Part shown: positions 6,663-56,810 of the stretch, piece by piece
Layout of the letters: every line of letters begins with the position of its first letter
Position numbering within the stretch: the stretch's first letter is position 1
DNA from: Lactobacillus hominis DSM 23910 = CRBIP 24.179
GTDB lineage: Bacteria; Bacillota; Bacilli; Lactobacillales; Lactobacillaceae
Direction of reading: 5' to 3'
Length of the DNA: 64,000 bases
Assembly: GCF_000296835.1 (NCBI RefSeq)
Contig: NZ_CAKE01000001.1
Span: forward strand, 1-64,000
Notes under the pieces: generated by a model
The model's input: only the letters and a program-made list of their open reading frames with translations
The model's database searches: none
Told to the model about the DNA's origin: nothing
Made by a program: the position numbers and the translations under genes

Positions 6663-7499
6663 ATGACAATAGGAGAAGCACTAAAACAGATTCATTTGCA
6701 AGCAGGACTTACTCAAACGCAAATGGCAGCAGATATAATTACAGAGTCATTTTATTCTAAAGTTGAACGTGTCGTTCACTCAATTGATGCTGATACTTTG
6801 ATTAATTTGCTAACTGCACATCATTTGGATGTGATTCATTTCTTTACTTTAATTGCAAATCAAAAATCTGTCGCTCAGCCACATTTTGACTTAGTCAATA
6901 AAATTACTTTTGCCCAAAATAGAAAAGACATTAGGGCTTTAGATAAAATAGCCTCAGAAATCCAAAATGGGGGGGGTAGTGAGGAATTCTATCTCCAATT
7001 TCGCCTTCAGAATGCTTATGCCTGGGTATTGCATTCTAACAAGATGGTATCGTCTGAGATAAAGAAAAAGGTTAAATCGTTAATTTTGGATGAGAATTGG
7101 AATCGACCTGCATATCATTATTTAAGTCAAGCTATCATCTTTTTAGATATTGATGAAGCATATTATTTAGTTAATTCCGCTTTTAATGCCTTTAAGAGGA
7201 GTGAAAAACGCGATACGTTTTCGCTACAATTTGTGGCTTTAATTGCGGTAAATTATTTGAATTGTTGCTATCATCAAAAGGTAGATAAGAAATATACTAG
7301 TTGCGCAATTGATTTTTTGCATAGCTTACCTATAGATGCAAGTATTGGTCTTAACAGCATTTTAGGAACTTATTATGAAGCGCTTTTTAACAATGATGTC
7401 CAAACGCAAAAAATGGTTGCTCTAATTTTGAAAAAGAGTGGCTATTTATCAACTATTGAAGATACCTTAAGTAAAAAATTACTTGAAGAATTAAAATAA
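6663..7499 (+). CDS. Rgg-like HTH transcriptional regulator (paralog 3) containing a G8 tract
   Basis: This 278-residue protein has an XRE helix-turn-helix at residues 3-60 (IGEALKQIHLQAGLTQTQMA, then ESFYSKVERVVHSID) and a C-terminal helical domain like the regulator at 3459. An AGGAG site sits just upstream of the ATG. At 6969-6976 there are eight consecutive G residues, encoding Gly-Gly-Gly at about residue 103 in an otherwise AT-rich gene, just after the DNA-binding domain. Loss or gain of one G would truncate the protein there. It is transcribed alone, between two terminators, facing the stress-protein gene. Target genes and any peptide ligand are unknown. Confidence 0.78.
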   Translation: MTIGEALKQIHLQAGLTQTQMAADIITESFYSKVERVVHSIDADTLINLLTAHHLDVIHFFTLIANQKSVAQPHFDLVNKITFAQNRKDIRALDKIASEIQNGGGSEEFYLQFRLQNAYAWVLHSNKMVSSEIKKKVKSLILDENWNRPAYHYLSQAIIFLDIDEAYYLVNSAFNAFKRSEKRDTFSLQFVALIAVNYLNCCYHQKVDKKYTSCAIDFLHSLPIDASIGLNSILGTYYEALFNNDVQTQKMVALILKKSGYLSTIEDTLSKKLLEELK

Positions 7500-50353: not shown

Positions 50354-50800
50354 ATGGATTCAAAAAATAATAAAACCAGTTGGCTCCAAAATCATCTAAT
50401 GCCAGTAGCTGCCAAATTGGGTCAAAACACAAGCCTGATATCTCTGCGTGATGGTATTACTCTTGCTATGCCTTTAATCATTGTTGGTTCGATCTTCATG
50501 ATTATCAGTTCTTTCCCAGTTCCTGGTTTTGATAGCGAGGAATTGAAGCAAGTTGTAAAGTTGGCTCATCCAAATGGCGCTTTAGTTATGAGCACGATTG
50601 GAACAAGTCAAGAAGGATTCGGTGCAAGCTTTATTGAACAAACTGCGATTAGAAATAAGATTTGTGGTGTAGATATTCAACATATTGGGGATGCTGCTTG
50701 GGGTATACAATCTCCATTTGAAAACATTTATCCTTTAAGCAAAGCGATTCGTGGCGAGCGCCACACCATTAGTCGAATGGCTAGATCAATTAATAGATAG
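50354..50800 (+). CDS. Truncated PTS EIIC (cellobiose/lactose type) N-terminal remnant with foreign tail
   Basis: The first ~60 residues match the N-terminus of cellobiose/lactose family PTS permeases (HLMPVAAKLGQNTSLISLRDG, then the first span AMPLIIVGSIFMIISSFPV). A complete EIIC is about 430 residues, so most of it is gone. From about residue 75 the sequence (GTSQEGFGASFIEQTAIRNK, IQHIGDAAWGIQSPFENIY, RGERHTISRMARSINR) is soluble and does not look like EIIC; it ends like the C-terminus of an unrelated enzyme that I cannot identify. This suggests a deletion that fused two gene ends. It keeps a strong AAGGGAG site but is probably non-functional. Confidence 0.65.
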   Translation: MDSKNNKTSWLQNHLMPVAAKLGQNTSLISLRDGITLAMPLIIVGSIFMIISSFPVPGFDSEELKQVVKLAHPNGALVMSTIGTSQEGFGASFIEQTAIRNKICGVDIQHIGDAAWGIQSPFENIYPLSKAIRGERHTISRMARSINR

Positions 50801-50835
50801 AAAAATACGGATTCACTTTTGTGAATCCGTATTTT
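50801..50835. terminator. Bidirectional terminator between EIIC remnant and lipid kinase
   Basis: A perfect 14-bp stem (arms about 50802-50815 and 50821-50834), with A run on the left and T run on the right, between two converging genes. Confidence 0.9.
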
Positions 50836-51775
50836 AATGCAAAAGATTAAAACTAGAAATTGAAAATTCTAAATCGAAGTTGCGACTACCCAATTCTTCA
50901 CCATCAATTTGTCCAAATTCTAATGGTTTTGTTCTAACTGAAATTTTTTCCCCTTCATAATAATGAAAATGAGGATCTTTCATATGCGAACCATTACGCA
51001 ATAATTTGCTAAACAGATATATAAACTTCAAAGTAGAAGGTTTTTCAACAACTATGGTATATAATTTGTGGCTGGTCGGGTCGGCAATTGGCAAGATAGG
51101 AACGCCACCACCAAAGTAGGGATGGTTAGTAGTGGTTACTAAATAAGCATCCTTAAAGTGGTGTATTTGATGATTAAGGCTGATAGTTGCTTCAAATGTT
51201 TCTTGGTTAGCCAACGCATTAAGAATATTGATACCATAACTTAAATTTCCAATATTAAAATAATTTAGTCTATCTCTCAACTTAGAATTATTTGTCTGTG
51301 CAACTACATATGCATCAAAGCCTATGCCTAAATTATTTGCCAGATAGGTATTGGTATTACGGTCAAGATCATGGCACTGAATACAATCTATTTTTGAAAT
51401 GATCGGATTTTTTAATAATTTATCGATTAATTTACTCGGATCTTGAATTAATTTTGTTGCTTTGGCAAAATCATTACCAGTTCCAGCTGGCAAATATGCA
51501 ATTGGAGTATCAGGATAATCAGATTTTTTAACACCATTTAATGTTTGATTTAAAGATCCATCACCGCCGATTACTAGCAATATTTTTTGAGAATCATTTT
51601 TGATTCGGTTAGCCGTTGATTTGGCGAGCAGAGGTGTTTGGCCTGAATAATGGGACACTTCGAAAAAATAAGTAATTTTTCTTTTGTCTAATTCACGCTT
51701 AACTTCTTTAAATACTTCTGATCCTTTATTTGAGCCAGAAATTGGATTAACTATTAAATAAAACTCTTTTGTCAT
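50834..51775 (-). CDS. Diacylglycerol kinase / YegS-like lipid kinase
   Basis: This 313-residue lipid kinase starts FYLIVNPISGSNKGSEVF, with the nucleotide motif VIGGDGSLNQTLNGV and PAGTGNDFAKATK, the standard DagK signature. The C-terminal half carries the beta-sandwich domain with QIDGEEL. Soluble Gram-positive DgkB recycles diacylglycerol from lipoteichoic acid synthesis. This gene may be such a paralog; the exact lipid cannot be told. It is on the minus strand downstream of rnjA's terminator. Confidence 0.88.
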   Translation of the reverse strand: MTKEFYLIVNPISGSNKGSEVFKEVKRELDKRKITYFFEVSHYSGQTPLLAKSTANRIKNDSQKILLVIGGDGSLNQTLNGVKKSDYPDTPIAYLPAGTGNDFAKATKLIQDPSKLIDKLLKNPIISKIDCIQCHDLDRNTNTYLANNLGIGFDAYVVAQTNNSKLRDRLNYFNIGNLSYGINILNALANQETFEATISLNHQIHHFKDAYLVTTTNHPYFGGGVPILPIADPTSHKLYTIVVEKPSTLKFIYLFSKLLRNGSHMKDPHFHYYEGEKISVRTKPLEFGQIDGEELGSRNFDLEFSISSFNLLH

Positions 51776-51839: not shown

Positions 51840-53525
51840 CTATTTCTTTTCAATGATCATTGGTAAAATCATTGGACGTCTTTCAGTCTTAGAATATAGG
51901 AAATCTTGTAAGTTTTCAATGATTGCTTTTTTAATGTCTCTTTCAGAAGGACGAGGATTTTTGGCCATTTCTTCACGTAAAATGTGATAAACGTGCTTTT
52001 GAGCGGCACTGATCAAGTCCGTTGATTCACGCATGTAGACAAATCCACGACTGAGAATGTCAGGACCAGCTAATACTCTTTGATGCTTATAATCTACAGT
52101 AGCTACAACAACTACTAGACCTTCCTCAGCTAAGATTTGACGATCGCGGACAACTACATTGCCAACATCAGCACTACCGGAAGTATCAACGAATACATCT
52201 GGGATATTGATGTGACCGGCAATTCTTGAACTGTCTTTAGTTAATGCTAAGACATCACCGTTTTTTAATACAAAAGTATGGTCAGCTGGCATTCCAGTAG
52301 ATTGAGCTGTTTCAGTGTGAACAACTTGCATTCTGTATTCACCGTGAACCGGAATAAAGTATTCTGGTTTGGTAATTTCAATCATCATCTTTTGTTCTTC
52401 TTGACCACCGTGACCAGAAGTATGGACATTATGGATTTTACCATGAACCACTTTAGCGCCAGCTTCAGTTAACTTGTTGATTAAATGGTTAACGCTGGTG
52501 GTGTTTCCTGGAATTGGGTTAGAAGAAAAGATTACAGTATCGTTTGGCTGCAATGAAATTTGACGGTGAGTACCGTTGGCAATTCTAGATAAAGCTGCTA
52601 ATGGCTCACCTTGAGAACCAGTACACAAAATCATGGCCTTTTCAGGTGGAGTATGGTTGATTTCATTTGCATCAACTAAAGTGCCTTCAGGAATTTTTAG
52701 ATAACCTAAATCAATACCATTTTGGACACCGTTTTCCATTGAACGACCAAAGATTGCAACTTTTCTTCCAGTGTCAACAGCTGCTTGAATAGCAGTTGAA
52801 ACACGGTATAAGTTAGAAGCAAAAGTGGCAAAGATGATTCTGCCATCAATACCAGTAATGATATTGTGCAATGATTTTGCAACAAAACGTTCTGACTTAG
52901 TAAAAGTAGGAACTTCAGCATTAGTAGAGTCACTTAAAAGTGCCAAAACACCTTCGTTACCTAAACGAGCCATTTCTTGAAAATCAGGAGCAGGTTGATT
53001 CATTACTGGAGTTAGGTCTAACTTAAAGTCGCCAGTAAATAAAATCGCCCCTTGCGGTGTATGTACTGCTATTCCCAAAGTATCAGGAATAGAGTGGGTT
53101 GTTCTAAAGAATGAAACTGAAAGTTTAGGGAATTTTAAGACAGTGTCTTCATGTTCTTCATAAAGCTTACTTGTCTTTAATAAACCATGTTCTTCGAGTT
53201 TTCCTCTAATTAATGAAAGAGCAAATGGCGTAGCATAAACAGGTATTTCTGGAATCTTTTCTAAAAGGTAAGGAATACCGCCAATGTGGTCTTCATGTCC
53301 GTGAGTAACTACGAGAGCTTTGATTTTATCTCTATTTTTAACAAGATACGAGTAATCCGAGATAACGTAGTTAATTCCCATTTCATCGTCTTCAGGGAAT
53401 TTGATACCGCAGTCCATAATGATAATTTCATCTTGGAATTGGACACAGTACATATTACGGCCAATTTCGCCTAAACCCCCGATGGCGAAAATGCCGACTT
53501 CATTATTTTTAAGTTTAACCGACAT
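51840..53525 (-). CDS. rnjA: Ribonuclease J1
   Basis: This 561-residue metallo-beta-lactamase/beta-CASP ribonuclease has 5' exonuclease and endonuclease activity on mRNA. The metal motif HGHEDHIGGIPYLL is at about residues 76-89; further metal ligands are in ILFTGDFKLD and the beta-CASP motifs SDSTNAE and CTGSQGEPLAALSRI; HVSGH-type motif reads HTSGHGGQEE. Called J1 because it follows rpoY directly. Its ATG overlaps the rpoY stop. Confidence 0.95.
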   Translation of the reverse strand: MSVKLKNNEVGIFAIGGLGEIGRNMYCVQFQDEIIIMDCGIKFPEDDEMGINYVISDYSYLVKNRDKIKALVVTHGHEDHIGGIPYLLEKIPEIPVYATPFALSLIRGKLEEHGLLKTSKLYEEHEDTVLKFPKLSVSFFRTTHSIPDTLGIAVHTPQGAILFTGDFKLDLTPVMNQPAPDFQEMARLGNEGVLALLSDSTNAEVPTFTKSERFVAKSLHNIITGIDGRIIFATFASNLYRVSTAIQAAVDTGRKVAIFGRSMENGVQNGIDLGYLKIPEGTLVDANEINHTPPEKAMILCTGSQGEPLAALSRIANGTHRQISLQPNDTVIFSSNPIPGNTTSVNHLINKLTEAGAKVVHGKIHNVHTSGHGGQEEQKMMIEITKPEYFIPVHGEYRMQVVHTETAQSTGMPADHTFVLKNGDVLALTKDSSRIAGHINIPDVFVDTSGSADVGNVVVRDRQILAEEGLVVVVATVDYKHQRVLAGPDILSRGFVYMRESTDLISAAQKHVYHILREEMAKNPRPSERDIKKAIIENLQDFLYSKTERRPMILPMIIEKK

Positions 53526-53752
53526 TAATCTTTGTCAGAATCAAAAGTTGTCAGCTTAAAATCTGGACTTTGCTTTTCGTAAGCAAGGGAATTTCCAGTT
53601 AGTTCTTGGATGAGTTCAATATTATAGGGGGTATTATCCTCAACCATAGTTCTTGCTGCAACTAAATTATCTGCTTCAACATAAAGAGTTTGGGTAGTTT
53701 CTCTTCTTGGATTAACGATCTGGTCTTTTTGGTATAAAACTTTGTAGATCAT
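53525..53752 (-). CDS. rpoY: RpoY, RNA polymerase epsilon subunit
   Basis: This 75-residue protein of the former DUF1447/YkzG family is a small RNA polymerase subunit of Firmicutes. The pattern [27 protein letters not shown] matches the family. It is encoded directly upstream of rnjA with one-base overlap, the conserved Firmicutes arrangement linking transcription and mRNA decay. AAGGAG precedes the ATG by about 9 bases. Confidence 0.92.
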
Positions 53753-53802
53753 TTGTTAAATCTCCTTATTTTTTATAAACGTTCTAATTTTGAGTAAGTA
53801 AA

Positions 53803-53856
53803 TACGCAATACCAGTAAAAAACGCGTTTAAATTTGTTTTAACTAATTATTGCGTA
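53803..53856 (-). promoter_or_regulatory. Long inverted repeat in the rpoY-rnjA leader
   Basis: A perfect 9-bp inverted repeat (TACGCAATA at 53803-53811, TATTGCGTA at 53848-53856), extended inward by AGT...AAAA / TTTT...ACT, forms a hairpin of about 54 nt in the untranslated leader of rpoY-rnjA (minus strand). The loop includes an ACGCGT palindrome. There is no T run, so it is not a terminator. It could protect the 5' end or be a regulatory site, which is inference. The rest of the gap 53753-53960 holds only AT-rich sequence. Confidence 0.6.
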
Positions 53857-53960
53857 ACGTGTACAAACTCAATGCTATTAAAAATTTTATCATAAATCAT
53901 CACTTAAGTATATAAATAGGTTTGTAAAAAACATAAATGAATGCCATTATAAAATAATAA

Positions 53961-53990
53961 TTGACAACTTATGATAATTAAGACTATGAT
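53961..53990 (+). promoter_or_regulatory. Promoter of a small plus-strand RNA
   Basis: Perfect -35 box TTGACA (53961-53966), 18-base spacer, -10 box TATGAT (53985-53990), reading away from rpoY toward the short RNA at 53997-54088. Confidence 0.75.
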
Positions 53991-53996
53991 ATAAAT

Positions 53997-54088
53997 GGTA
54001 AATGACTTGGGGTGATAAAGTTGTTTACCAGAAGTATCTTCATTCTTCTTAAGTAACATGGGAAGTGCTGGTTAGCCAGCACTTTTTT
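53997..54088 (+). ncRNA. Candidate small RNA (about 90 nt) or leader-peptide transcript
   Basis: A promoter and a strong terminator frame about 90 nt with no gene downstream on this strand. The 5' end forms a hairpin GGTAAA (53997-54002) / TTTACC (54024-54029). In its loop lies GGGGTGAT, a ribosome site, followed by TTG 54021, which opens an 11-codon frame (MFTRSIFILLK) ending TAA at 54054-54056. It may be a small RNA with masked translation, a short peptide, or an attenuated leader left without its gene. No known family was recognised. Confidence 0.6.
54064..54088 (+). terminator. Terminator of the small RNA
   Basis: Perfect 8-bp stem AGTGCTGG / CCAGCACT (54064-54071 and 54076-54083), tetraloop TTAG, followed by six T. 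Confidence 0.9.
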
Positions 54089-54097
54089 GTATCCAAA

Positions 54098-54147
54098 ATA
54101 AAATGTGGATGTAAGCTTTACTATATAACTTATATCCACATTTTTTA
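54098..54147. terminator. Terminator of def (minus strand), bidirectional
   Basis: A 10-bp stem (arms 54101-54110 and 54134-54143), extended inward by GTAAG/CTTAT, has T-rich flanks on both sides. It ends the def transcript. Confidence 0.8.
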
Positions 54148-54161
54148 TTATGTATTGAATT

Positions 54162-54716
54162 TTAAGAAATTACGACTGTATCTTCTGCAAGAGTAAATGG
54201 ATTTTCCTTATTAATTCTGTCGTAGAATAAATGTCCATTTAAGTGATCTATTTCGTGAGAAGCAACAATTGCTGGATAATCCTTTAAGCGAATAGTCTTT
54301 TCTTGCCCGTCAACAGTATAATAATGAATCTTTAATTTATCTGGACGTGGAACGTAGCCTTCAATATCTTTATCAACACTCAAACAACCTTCGCCTTCAG
54401 CAAGGCAAGCTTTACGAACTGATTCAGATAAAATCTTTGGGTTAACAAAAACTTCCTTAAAAATAATGTTGCCTTTATCATCAGGAACTAAAAGGGCAGC
54501 CATTTGAATACTACGTCCAACTTGTGGAGCAGCCAAACCAACTCCGGCCCTTAATTGATGTTTTTGGGCAATTTTTGGATCTTGAGAATCGATTAAGTAT
54601 TGCATCATTTCCTCAGCAAAGTCTTTATCTTCTTGAGAGAGAGGAAAAGTTAATGGCTCAGCAACTTTTCTAAGTACTGGATCACCATCACGAACAATAT
54701 CATGCATTAAAATCAC
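54162..54716 (-). CDS. def: Peptide deformylase
   Basis: This 184-residue metalloenzyme removes the formyl group from nascent proteins. The three motifs are [10 protein letters not shown] (residues 59-68), EGCLSV (about 110-115) and the metal site [11 protein letters not shown]. It is the longer type-2 form of Gram-positive bacteria. The start is GTG 54716, because AGGAGG (54725-54730) is 8 bases away, whereas ATG 54707 would be 17 bases away. Monocistronic. Confidence 0.95.
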
Positions 54717-54823
54717 TAAAAAATCCTCCTTTAGTTAAAATAATTATTATAATTATCATATCAGTTACTAGATTTTACGGCAATAAACAAAATTGGGGTT
54801 GAGTGAAAGATGACTTGTATATA

Positions 54824-54852
54824 TTGACCTTGACTATATTTTTTGGTAAAAT
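54824..54852 (+). promoter_or_regulatory. Sigma-A promoter of typA
   Basis: -35 box TTGACC (54824-54829), 17-base spacer, -10 box TAAAAT (54847-54852). It should start a leader of about 110 nt. Confidence 0.75.
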
Positions 54853-54919
54853 CTGAAAACGAAACTATTACAGAATAAAAGCTTCATCAAACTGCATTAT
54901 TTATTTTTGCATAAAAGGG

Positions 54920-54944
54920 CTGTGACTGAAGTCACAGTTTTTTT
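54920..54944 (+). terminator. Intrinsic terminator inside the typA leader
   Basis: A 7-bp stem CTGTGAC / GTCACAG (54920-54926 and 54931-54937) with loop TGAA is followed by seven T, ending one base before the in-frame ATG 54945 and 24 bases before the true typA start. It is downstream of the typA promoter, so it should stop or lower typA transcription unless it is overcome. Confidence 0.75.
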
Positions 54945-54968
54945 ATGAAGTTCGGGGAGGAATTTCTT

Positions 54969-56810
54969 TTGCAAAGAAGAGACGATATTAGAAACATTGC
55001 GATTATTGCGCACGTTGACCACGGTAAGACTACTTTGGTTAACCAATTATTAAAACAATCAGATACATTACCAGAACACATGAATCTTGAAGATCGTGCG
55101 ATGGACTCAAATGCGATTGAACGTGAACGTGGTATTACTATTTTATCTAAGAACACTGCTGTTAAATATGGCGATACTACTATTAATATTTTGGATACGC
55201 CAGGACACGCCGACTTCGGTGGTGAAGTAGAACGTATCATGCACATGGTTGATGGTTGTTTGCTTTTAGTTGATGCTTACGAAGGAACTATGCCTCAGAC
55301 TCGTTTTGTTTTGAAAAAAGCATTGGAAGCTGGAGTAAAGCCAATCGTAGTTATTAACAAGATTGACCGTCCAGGTGCTCGTCCAAAAGAAGTTTTAGAT
55401 GAAGTCTTAGAATTATTTATTGAATTAGGTGCTAATGATGAACAACTTGATTTCCCAGTTGTTTACGCATCTGCTTTAAACGGAACTTCTTCATATGATT
55501 CAGATCCTGCTAAGCAAGAAGAAACTATGGATCCAATTTTTGACACTATCGTTAAAAATATTCCAGCTCCAGTTGATAATTCTGATGAACCTCTTCAATT
55601 CCAAATCACTATGCTTGATTGGGATGACTATGTGGGTCGTATTGGGGTAGGCCGTATTTACCGTGGTAAAGTTAAGGTTGGCGATAACATCACTGTTATG
55701 AAACGTGATGGTTCAACTCAAAACTTCCGCGTTACTAAACTATTTGGTTACTTTGGTTTGAAGCGTAACGAAATCAAAGAAGCTAAGGCCGGCGATATCA
55801 TTGCTATTTCTGGTATTAATGACATCTACGTTGGTGAAACTATTGCTGACGCTCAAAAGCCTGAAGCATTGCCATTGCTTAAGATTGATCCACCTACTTT
55901 ACAAATGGACTTTGTAGCAAATGATTCTCCATTTGCTGGTCGTGAAGGTGATCAAGTTACTCCTAAGAAACTTGAAGATCGTTTAATTCGTCAAACTCGT
56001 ACTGATGTTTCATTGAAAGTTGAACCAACTGATCAATTGAATGCCTGGACTGTTTCTGGTCGTGGTGAATTGCACCTTTCAATTTTAGTTGAAGAATTAC
56101 GTCGTGAAGGTTTTGAATTGCAACTTTCACGTCCTAAGGTTATTTACCGTGAAATCGATGGTAAATTATGCGAACCATTTGAAGCTGTTCAAGTTGATAC
56201 TCCAGATGAATATGTTGGTTCTGTTATCGACTCACTTTCTCAAAGAAAAGGTGAGATGAAGAACATGGAAGCAACTGGAAATGGTCAAACACGTTTGACT
56301 TTCTTGGTTCCTTCACGTGGATTAATTGGTTACAATAATGAATTTATGTCTCAAACTGCTGGTTACGGTATCATGAACCATACTTTTGAAAAGTATGCTC
56401 CAGTAATTAAGAACTGGGAACCAGGTCGTCGAAATGGTGCGCTTGTTTCGATCAACCAAGGTCAATCAACTACTTACTCGCTTCAATCAGTTGAACAACG
56501 TGGTGAACTATTCATCGGTGCTGGTGTTGAAGTTTACGAAGGTATGATTGTTGGTCAATCAAGCCGTGAACGTGATATTGCTGTTAACGTAACTAAGGGT
56601 AAGAACTTAACTAACACCCGTGCTGCAGGTAAAGACCACTCAGCTTCAATTAAGACTCCTAAGAAGTTAACTTTGGAAGAAGCTATCGAATTCTTGAACG
56701 ATGATGAATACTGTGAAGTAACACCTGAAAGTATTCGCCTTCGTAAGAAGATTTTGAACACTAACGAACGTAAGAAAGCCGACAAAAAGCGTGGTAAAGC
56801 TAACGGCTAA
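54969..56810 (+). CDS. typA: TypA/BipA, ribosome-associated translational GTPase
   Basis: This 613-residue GTPase of the elongation-factor family acts in ribosome assembly and stress and cold growth. G1 is [11 protein letters not shown]3 [12 protein letters not shown]4 [11 protein letters not shown]-like domains and the BipA-specific C-terminus ([21 protein letters not shown] region) follow. The start is TTG 54969 ([16 protein letters not shown]), with GGGGAGG at 8 bases; the upstream in-frame ATG 54945 would lie before that site and add residues not usual in TypA. Confidence 0.95.

Follow-up and report, generated by a model that had tools for sequence, protein, structure and literature searches.

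In the genome of Lactobacillus hominis, a promoter and a terminator lie close together in the gap between rpoY and def, and the question that they raise is what the short transcript between them would be for. Within the window, i.e., the whole 64,000-nucleotide stretch of DNA that was analysed, the first-pass annotation had described a TTGACA promoter in this gap, a strong terminator, and no gene following on the plus strand. All three observations were borne out: the −35 box is accompanied by a TATGAT after an 18-nt spacer, the terminator hairpin runs into a T-run (Table 1), and rpoY (53525–53752) and def (54162–54716), named via the Pfam families RpoY and Pep_deformylase, respectively, are both on the minus strand, with the next long plus-strand gene, typA at 54945, approximately 850 nt beyond the terminator. 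The promoter matched 11 of 12 consensus positions in a promoter scan. When promoter-plus-terminator units were defined by a promoter of at least 11 of 12 positions, a stem of at least seven pairs with four GC, and a T-rich tail, a rule that was adjusted until the small RNA (sRNA) locus itself qualified, this locus was the sole unit on both strands of the window, and no such unit turned up in any of 100 Markov-1 sequences (64 kb each, searched on one strand). A stock promoter scan of positions 53000–55000 returned four promoter-like sites, fewer than the shuffled sequences (mean 8.4), and the output of a stock terminator scan did not include the sRNA terminator, we think because the extension of the stem swallows the T-run. 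The 160-nt sRNA stretch is present in a single copy in the window genome, and the 22-mer of its core has a single match within the 64-kb window at up to three mismatches. Sequences resembling TTTTATCATA occur at the putative rpoY promoter in most of the rpoY–def gaps inspected.

Table 1. Features of the rpoY–def gap, in window coordinates
Feature	Position	Strand	Remarks
Putative rpoY promoter	53889..53916	−	9/12 consensus; divergent from sRNA promoter
SigA-type/sigma-70 promoter	53961..53990	+	−35 TTGACA 53961–53966, 18-nt spacer, −10 TATGAT 53985–53990
Predicted small RNA, ~92 nt	53997..54088	+	Putative start, 7 nt after −10
5′ hairpin	53997..54029	+	12 bp, loop GGGGUGAUA; pairing kept, sequence variable
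11-codon frame MFTRSIFILLK, TTG start	54021..54056	+	Judged not a gene
Core hairpin AGAAG-UAUCUUCAUU-CUUCU plus UAA	54030..54052	+	Near-invariant; proposed CU-rich pairing site
Intrinsic terminator AAGTGCTGG-TTAG-CCAGCACT	54063..54088	+	T-run 54083–54088
def terminator hairpin	54100..54144	−	Inverted repeat, by eye

The predicted RNA folds into three hairpins with an energy of −32.6 kcal/mol, compared with −18.8 kcal/mol (sd 3.25) for shuffled sequences (z = −4.2; 0 of 200 shuffles as good), and a three-hairpin RNA of approximately 90–105 nt is predicted throughout the family described below. The 5′ hairpin had been thought to hide both a Shine–Dalgarno (SD) site and a TTG start codon. In the predicted fold, this holds for the TTG, which is buried in the 3′ arm, but not for the SD-like run GGGGTGAT, which forms an exposed loop (54009–54017). 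In L. kefiranofaciens (G019; locus L047, 590–766), about 25 nt at the start of the RNA are duplicated in tandem (ATATGTAGTGAATGATTTATAAA twice), so that the 5′ arm of the first hairpin is present there in two copies.

The locus is a real feature that recurs beyond one genome. We located def in 72 of the 75 Lactobacillus genomes, and the gap downstream of it was measured in 70; the two that were left out of this measurement (G001 and G077) gave no covariance-model match in a whole-genome search. The sRNA unit was present in 21 Lactobacillus species, in the same gap and the same orientation, opposite def, and all carriers share the core AGRAGTNYCTTCANTCTTCT. In 20 carriers the rpoY–def gap is 332–413 nt long, and in the remaining one (G094) the contig ends before rpoY, leaving 237 nt available. 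The other 49 of the 70 gaps, of 120–226 nt, lack the sRNA, and the best model score at these loci was 22.7 bits (E = 0.02), on the def strand. A 22nd match, antisense, was left out by a stricter cut-off before the family was counted. The RNAs fall into two clades. Clade A (n = 5) comprises the window, G094, G009 (L. rodentium), G005, and G080, and has the core loop UAUCUUCAUU and the linker UAAGUAACAU; clade B (n = 16) has the core loop UCUCUUCAAU or close variants and the linker UAAUUCCC, with UAGUUCCC in one member. A covariance model built from the 16 clade-B sequences alone found all five clade-A members in whole genomes (E = 1.7e-5 to 4.2e-4), which is an independent confirmation of the family, and gave a match at E ≤ 0.1 in 21 of the 75 genus genomes. 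An additional weak match in G080 (E = 0.015), at a gene end, looks like an ordinary terminator and was judged to be due to chance.

A scan of a species-genome collection with a degenerate 22-mer returned 16 stretches, 15 of them in Lactobacillus and all within the 21 carriers, including L. rodentium, L. gallinarum, L. kitasatonis, L. ultunensis, and L. kefiranofaciens, as well as L. hamsteri, L. agrestimuris, L. kalixensis, and L. xujianguonis. This collection is incomplete, and six carriers whose sequences fit (G000, G005, G008, G061, G062, and G064) were not returned. The sixteenth stretch, in Prochlorococcus, is by eye without the promoter–RNA–terminator layout and was judged to be a chance match. 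In the family search (301 genomes, 15 of the same genus), none of the 286 genomes outside the genus had a match at E ≤ 0.01 under stricter filters, among the matches listed. The sRNA is thus restricted to Lactobacillus among the genomes searched. In a species without the sRNA, the clade-B core 22-mer recurs with one mismatch (locus L186; G089 contig 1, near 750715), within a long coding frame that by eye resembles a kinase gene; the corresponding site in three relatives differs from the 22-mer at three positions, and the copy is probably fortuitous.

When the presence of the sRNA was mapped onto a quick protein tree built from def, rpoY, and the beginning of rnjA (69 rows, without row L009, where the contig ends), it required five changes, three of them forced by starred branches, versus 17.6 changes when the presence labels were shuffled. 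The five changes mean that the sRNA is dispensable. The simplest story is an ancestral sRNA followed by several losses, e.g., in most close relatives of the window species, and independent gains into one gap are less likely. This patchy distribution, with its several changes on the tree, is also what a selfish or mobile small element, or an antitoxin RNA, sitting in a permissive gap would produce. Such an element is nevertheless highly improbable, given that each of the 21 carriers has a single match, apart from the weak hit in G080, always in one gap, that phages, plasmids, and viral contigs contained no match to the sRNA, and that the sole frame noticed opposite the sRNA is broken in relatives.

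The constraint within the family is unevenly distributed along the RNA. In the core hairpin, 18 of 23 columns are invariant in the 21 species and the identity between clades A and B is 0.90; the corresponding values are 0.28 for the 5′ hairpin, 0.36 for the linker, 0.33 for the terminator, 34% and 26% for the flanks (the former upstream), 89% for the −35 box, and 81% for the T-run. Over all 21 members, the −35 box has a mean pairwise identity of 0.88, versus 0.36 in the upstream flank. In clade B, the spacer following the −35 box (TAAAATAAC...; e.g., loci L023, L025, L030, and L043) also showed a mean identity of 0.70, versus 0.45 in the 20 nt upstream, in a comparison of 15 of the 16 members without G019; it could be an operator through which the sRNA is itself regulated.

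In an alignment of the 21 sequences fitted to the structure, two-sided changes were seen in 11 of the 23 pairs (52 cells), no shuffle of 500 was as high on any of five measures, and the slid controls were all lower. Such changes affected four of nine pairs in the 5′ hairpin and seven of eight in the terminator. An unfitted MAFFT alignment of clade B likewise contained seven pairs with two-sided changes in 17 cells (0 of 500 shuffles), and, of the five measures, the count of further pair types was reached there by 53 of 500 shuffles. In the core stem, variation at the five inner pairs is confined to one cell, a G-U in G005, and the outermost pair is disrupted in three; covariation therefore gives no proof of this stem. 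From the unfitted 21-row alignment, RNAalifold recovered only hairpins 2 and 3, presumably owing to misalignment of the 5′ hairpin in it. Judging from these sequences, the conserved unit is the RNA itself, consisting of a variable 5′ hairpin with compensatory changes, a core hairpin, and a covarying terminator. Promoter and terminator, whose lack of conservation had been named beforehand as grounds for abandoning the locus, are kept in all 21 species, and their recurrence together with the core hairpin and compensatory changes favours the small regulatory RNA that was one of the options first proposed.

Another of those options was a tiny peptide, MFTRSIFILLK, whose translation would be gated by the 5′ hairpin. 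Its frame runs from the TTG at 54021–54023 to the stop at 54054–54056, with GGGGTGAT in frame 4 nt upstream of the TTG, and RSIFILLK followed by a stop can be read in all five clade-A members, in which the RNA core is also near-identical. The combination of SD-like run and TTG, however, occurs in one of the 21 members, the window itself. The run GGGGTGAT is missing in 19 of 21 and is shared by the window with G094, its closest relative, which has TTA at the start position, and the other four clade-A members offer a GTG in frame as candidate start, with no SD-like run. In all 16 clade-B members, the stop after the core is missing and the frame continues (RSLFNLLN... or close variants), reaching a stop further down in seven and staying open within the stretch read in nine. 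An in-frame ATG, GTG, or TTG is present in 11 of 16 clade-B members and 16 of 21 overall, those of clade B without an SD-like run by eye. The 5′ hairpin changes its sequence freely while keeping its pairing, so that the comparison of frame with structure conservation that had been suggested came out for the structure. With start, SD-like run, and stop all unconserved, MFTRSIFILLK was judged not to be a gene, and a functional peptide under controlled translation is hardly credible. A 51-aa antisense frame (53904–54059, minus strand) was also rejected: it is interrupted by stops in G094, G009, and G005, its start was not found in the 16 clade-B members, and in G080 it contains N's and no stop in the stretch read. 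At this locus, we found neither a conserved hydrophobic small ORF overlapping or adjacent to the sRNA, as in type I toxin–antitoxin systems, nor a conserved short ORF with a regulated gene on the same strand, as in leader peptides and attenuators.

The position of the RNA, divergent from the putative rpoY promoter and on the strand opposite def, would also suit a cis element, whether a relic attenuator, as had been proposed, a 5′ leader, or an antisense RNA that restrains rpoY or def. We regard this as very unlikely. No same-strand gene follows directly, and in all 21 members, which maintain promoter and terminator, the first downstream gene is def, encoded on the opposite strand. By its coordinates, moreover, the RNA lies between the rpoY promoter and the def terminator hairpin without reaching either, and hence should overlap neither mRNA, and 49 of the 70 gaps have the identical rpoY/def arrangement without any sRNA.

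With a promoter and a terminator of its own, no neighbouring gene on its strand, a conserved structure, a conserved seed-like region, and no conserved ORF, the locus shows features by which an sRNA gene is recognised from sequence, and its product is very probably a functional non-coding RNA. A CU-rich loop under such constraint is typical of the seed regions of sRNAs, and base-pairing is the probable mode of action. The reading that we prefer, with a probability of roughly 0.6, is a genus-restricted, stand-alone, trans-acting sRNA whose CU-rich core pairs with the translation starts of mRNAs. An sRNA gene fixed in the rpoY–def gap of part of Lactobacillus would be transcribed from its own promoter into a three-hairpin RNA; the 5′ hairpin would probably serve for protection and spacing; the CU-rich core hairpin (AGAAG-UMUCUUCAWU-CUUCU), as the active part, would open and base-pair in trans with purine-rich translation starts, presumably blocking ribosome entry; and the terminator hairpin would close the RNA.

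Candidate targets were found in individual species. In the window genome, the ATG of a gene for a histidine phosphatase (Pfam His_Phos_1; contig 22 of G000, near 7267) lies within a 14-nt sequence, AAGAAGAATGAAGA, that is perfectly complementary to the core; in G094, the complement at the start of this gene is 13 nt long. The clade-B orthologues, inspected among 30 loci of which L198 was unparsed and had its start region read separately, do not retain the site. The predicted pairing with the window site is −19.8 kcal/mol for core B and −19.6 kcal/mol for core A; the two cores pair equally strongly, and therefore the match is not clade-specific. An MFS transporter gene starts with AAGAATGAAGAAACTTAC, which is complementary to the clade-A core over the start codon (L121 1501–1520, L191, and L195, in G009, G080, and G005, respectively); 11 nt across the ATG are covered in G009 and G005, G080 reads identically, and the gene was found at E ≤ 1e-60 in these three of the 75 genus genomes. 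An apparent compensatory ATG/TTG change in this lead was discarded, the TTG cases (G008, G012, G036, and G089) being internal sites in an unrelated gene. It is conceivable, but rather unlikely, that the entire 20-nt core hairpin acts as an antisense element covering start codons, with the core frozen and the targets swapped from clade to clade: the histidine-phosphatase AUG (14 nt) in the window species and the MFS AUG (11 nt) in the L. rodentium subclade.

Broader searches gave graded results. Complements of the 20-mer with up to three mismatches numbered 10 non-self matches versus one for the reversed control in four clade-A genomes, and 11 versus seven for the control in five clade-B genomes. 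Most of these overlapped a called frame, under rough calling in which the cut loci L119 and L124 were mis-centred, and codon patterns (AAG, GAA) may lie behind the excess. For exact 11-mers, there were 26 non-self matches versus 10 in the control in four clade-A genomes and, with the clade-B 11-mer, 32 versus 21 in three genomes, with no recurring start-adjacent match among 30 of the 35 places. In a weak test of preference for ribosome-binding sites, based on 57 roughly called window genes, three of 100 shuffled cores were as low as core A, which is suggestive, and 44 of 100 were as low as core B, for which a preference is absent. No target conserved family-wide was found in these partial searches.

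This last result, and the near-invariance of both arms of the core stem along with the loop, which goes beyond the needs of a pure pairing seed, would also fit a protein-binding decoy or scaffold, in which the core stem and loop are the site of an RNA-binding protein that is titrated or guided. We consider this unlikely: no Rfam family with such a site was matched at threshold, no candidate protein was identified, the loop is CU-rich as in known pairing sRNAs, and invariance of the stem is also compatible with a long pairing site that unfolds when it meets its target.

The base-pairing sRNA proposed here would matter in several respects. Lactobacillus sensu stricto is important in the gut, the vagina, and dairy products, and to our knowledge few stand-alone regulatory RNAs have been characterised in it. 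A near-frozen 23-nt core in 21 species, together with sister species that lack the sRNA, offers a natural with/without comparison and a clean target for deletion. The locus also illustrates how a peptide reading drawn from a single genome dissolves on comparison with relatives.

In comparison with known RNAs, a search of Rfam 15 at E ≤ 1 with the sRNA region and five relatives gave only sub-threshold hits to other families (L20_leader, STnc400, STnc370, EF3314_EF3315, and LPR17), which were rejected as all lying below the gathering scores; those to STnc370 (L025) and LPR17 (L029) overlap the terminator end of the sRNA. The sub-threshold L20_leader match in the window (26.4 bits versus a gathering score of 58.7) lies at 50793–50904 on the minus strand. 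The Lactobacillales motifs Lacto-rpoB, Lacto-usp, L17 downstream element, lactis-plasmid, and Lacto-int were identified by comparative genomics (Weinberg 2010; PMC2864571) and, as far as the accessible text of that study goes, share the bacterial order with our sRNA but differ from it, as none of the accessioned motifs was matched in Rfam, while Lacto-int, without an Rfam number, is outside this comparison. In the accessible part of a 2018 study of the L. acidophilus complex, the core transcriptome includes seven short ORFs of 72–113 aa, regarded as possible peptides or RNAs (PMC6099100); these exceed the coding length of the sRNA. The SIPHT predictions of 2008 (PMC2527527) might hold the locus in their supplement. 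A literature search by title and abstract, with subscription papers and supplementary tables outside its reach, returned no description of the locus, and the sRNA thus seems to be an undescribed family, within the searchable literature, of a known kind, the base-pairing sRNAs.

The closest likenesses are with sRNAs carrying C-rich loops. In RsaE/RoxS and similar sRNAs, according to the accessible parts of the reports, an unpaired pyrimidine-rich motif is expected to meet purine-rich ribosome-binding sites (PMC4132741; see also PMC8216469 and PMC5419742). Such a motif is also predicted in the Lactobacillus sRNA, but its core is CUUC-rich, clade A lacks UCCC, there is no Rfam hit, and the distribution is limited to one genus. 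LhrC of Listeria monocytogenes, as far as the accessible descriptions go, is similarly a stand-alone RNA made up of stem-loops and a terminator, with an apical loop that carries a CU-rich motif, and clade B also has UUCCC in the linker. The differences are that the Lactobacillus sRNA is present in a single copy, compared with five for LhrC, and that UCCC occurs in the 16 clade-B members but is absent from the five clade-A members, including the window, so that the redundant UCCC motifs of LhrC are lacking. Homology is not indicated either: LhrC is represented in Rfam, where the sRNA gave sub-threshold hits to other families. On this reading, the Lactobacillus sRNA would be no member of the LhrC family but would work like LhrC and the other CU-rich sRNAs of low-GC Gram-positive bacteria.
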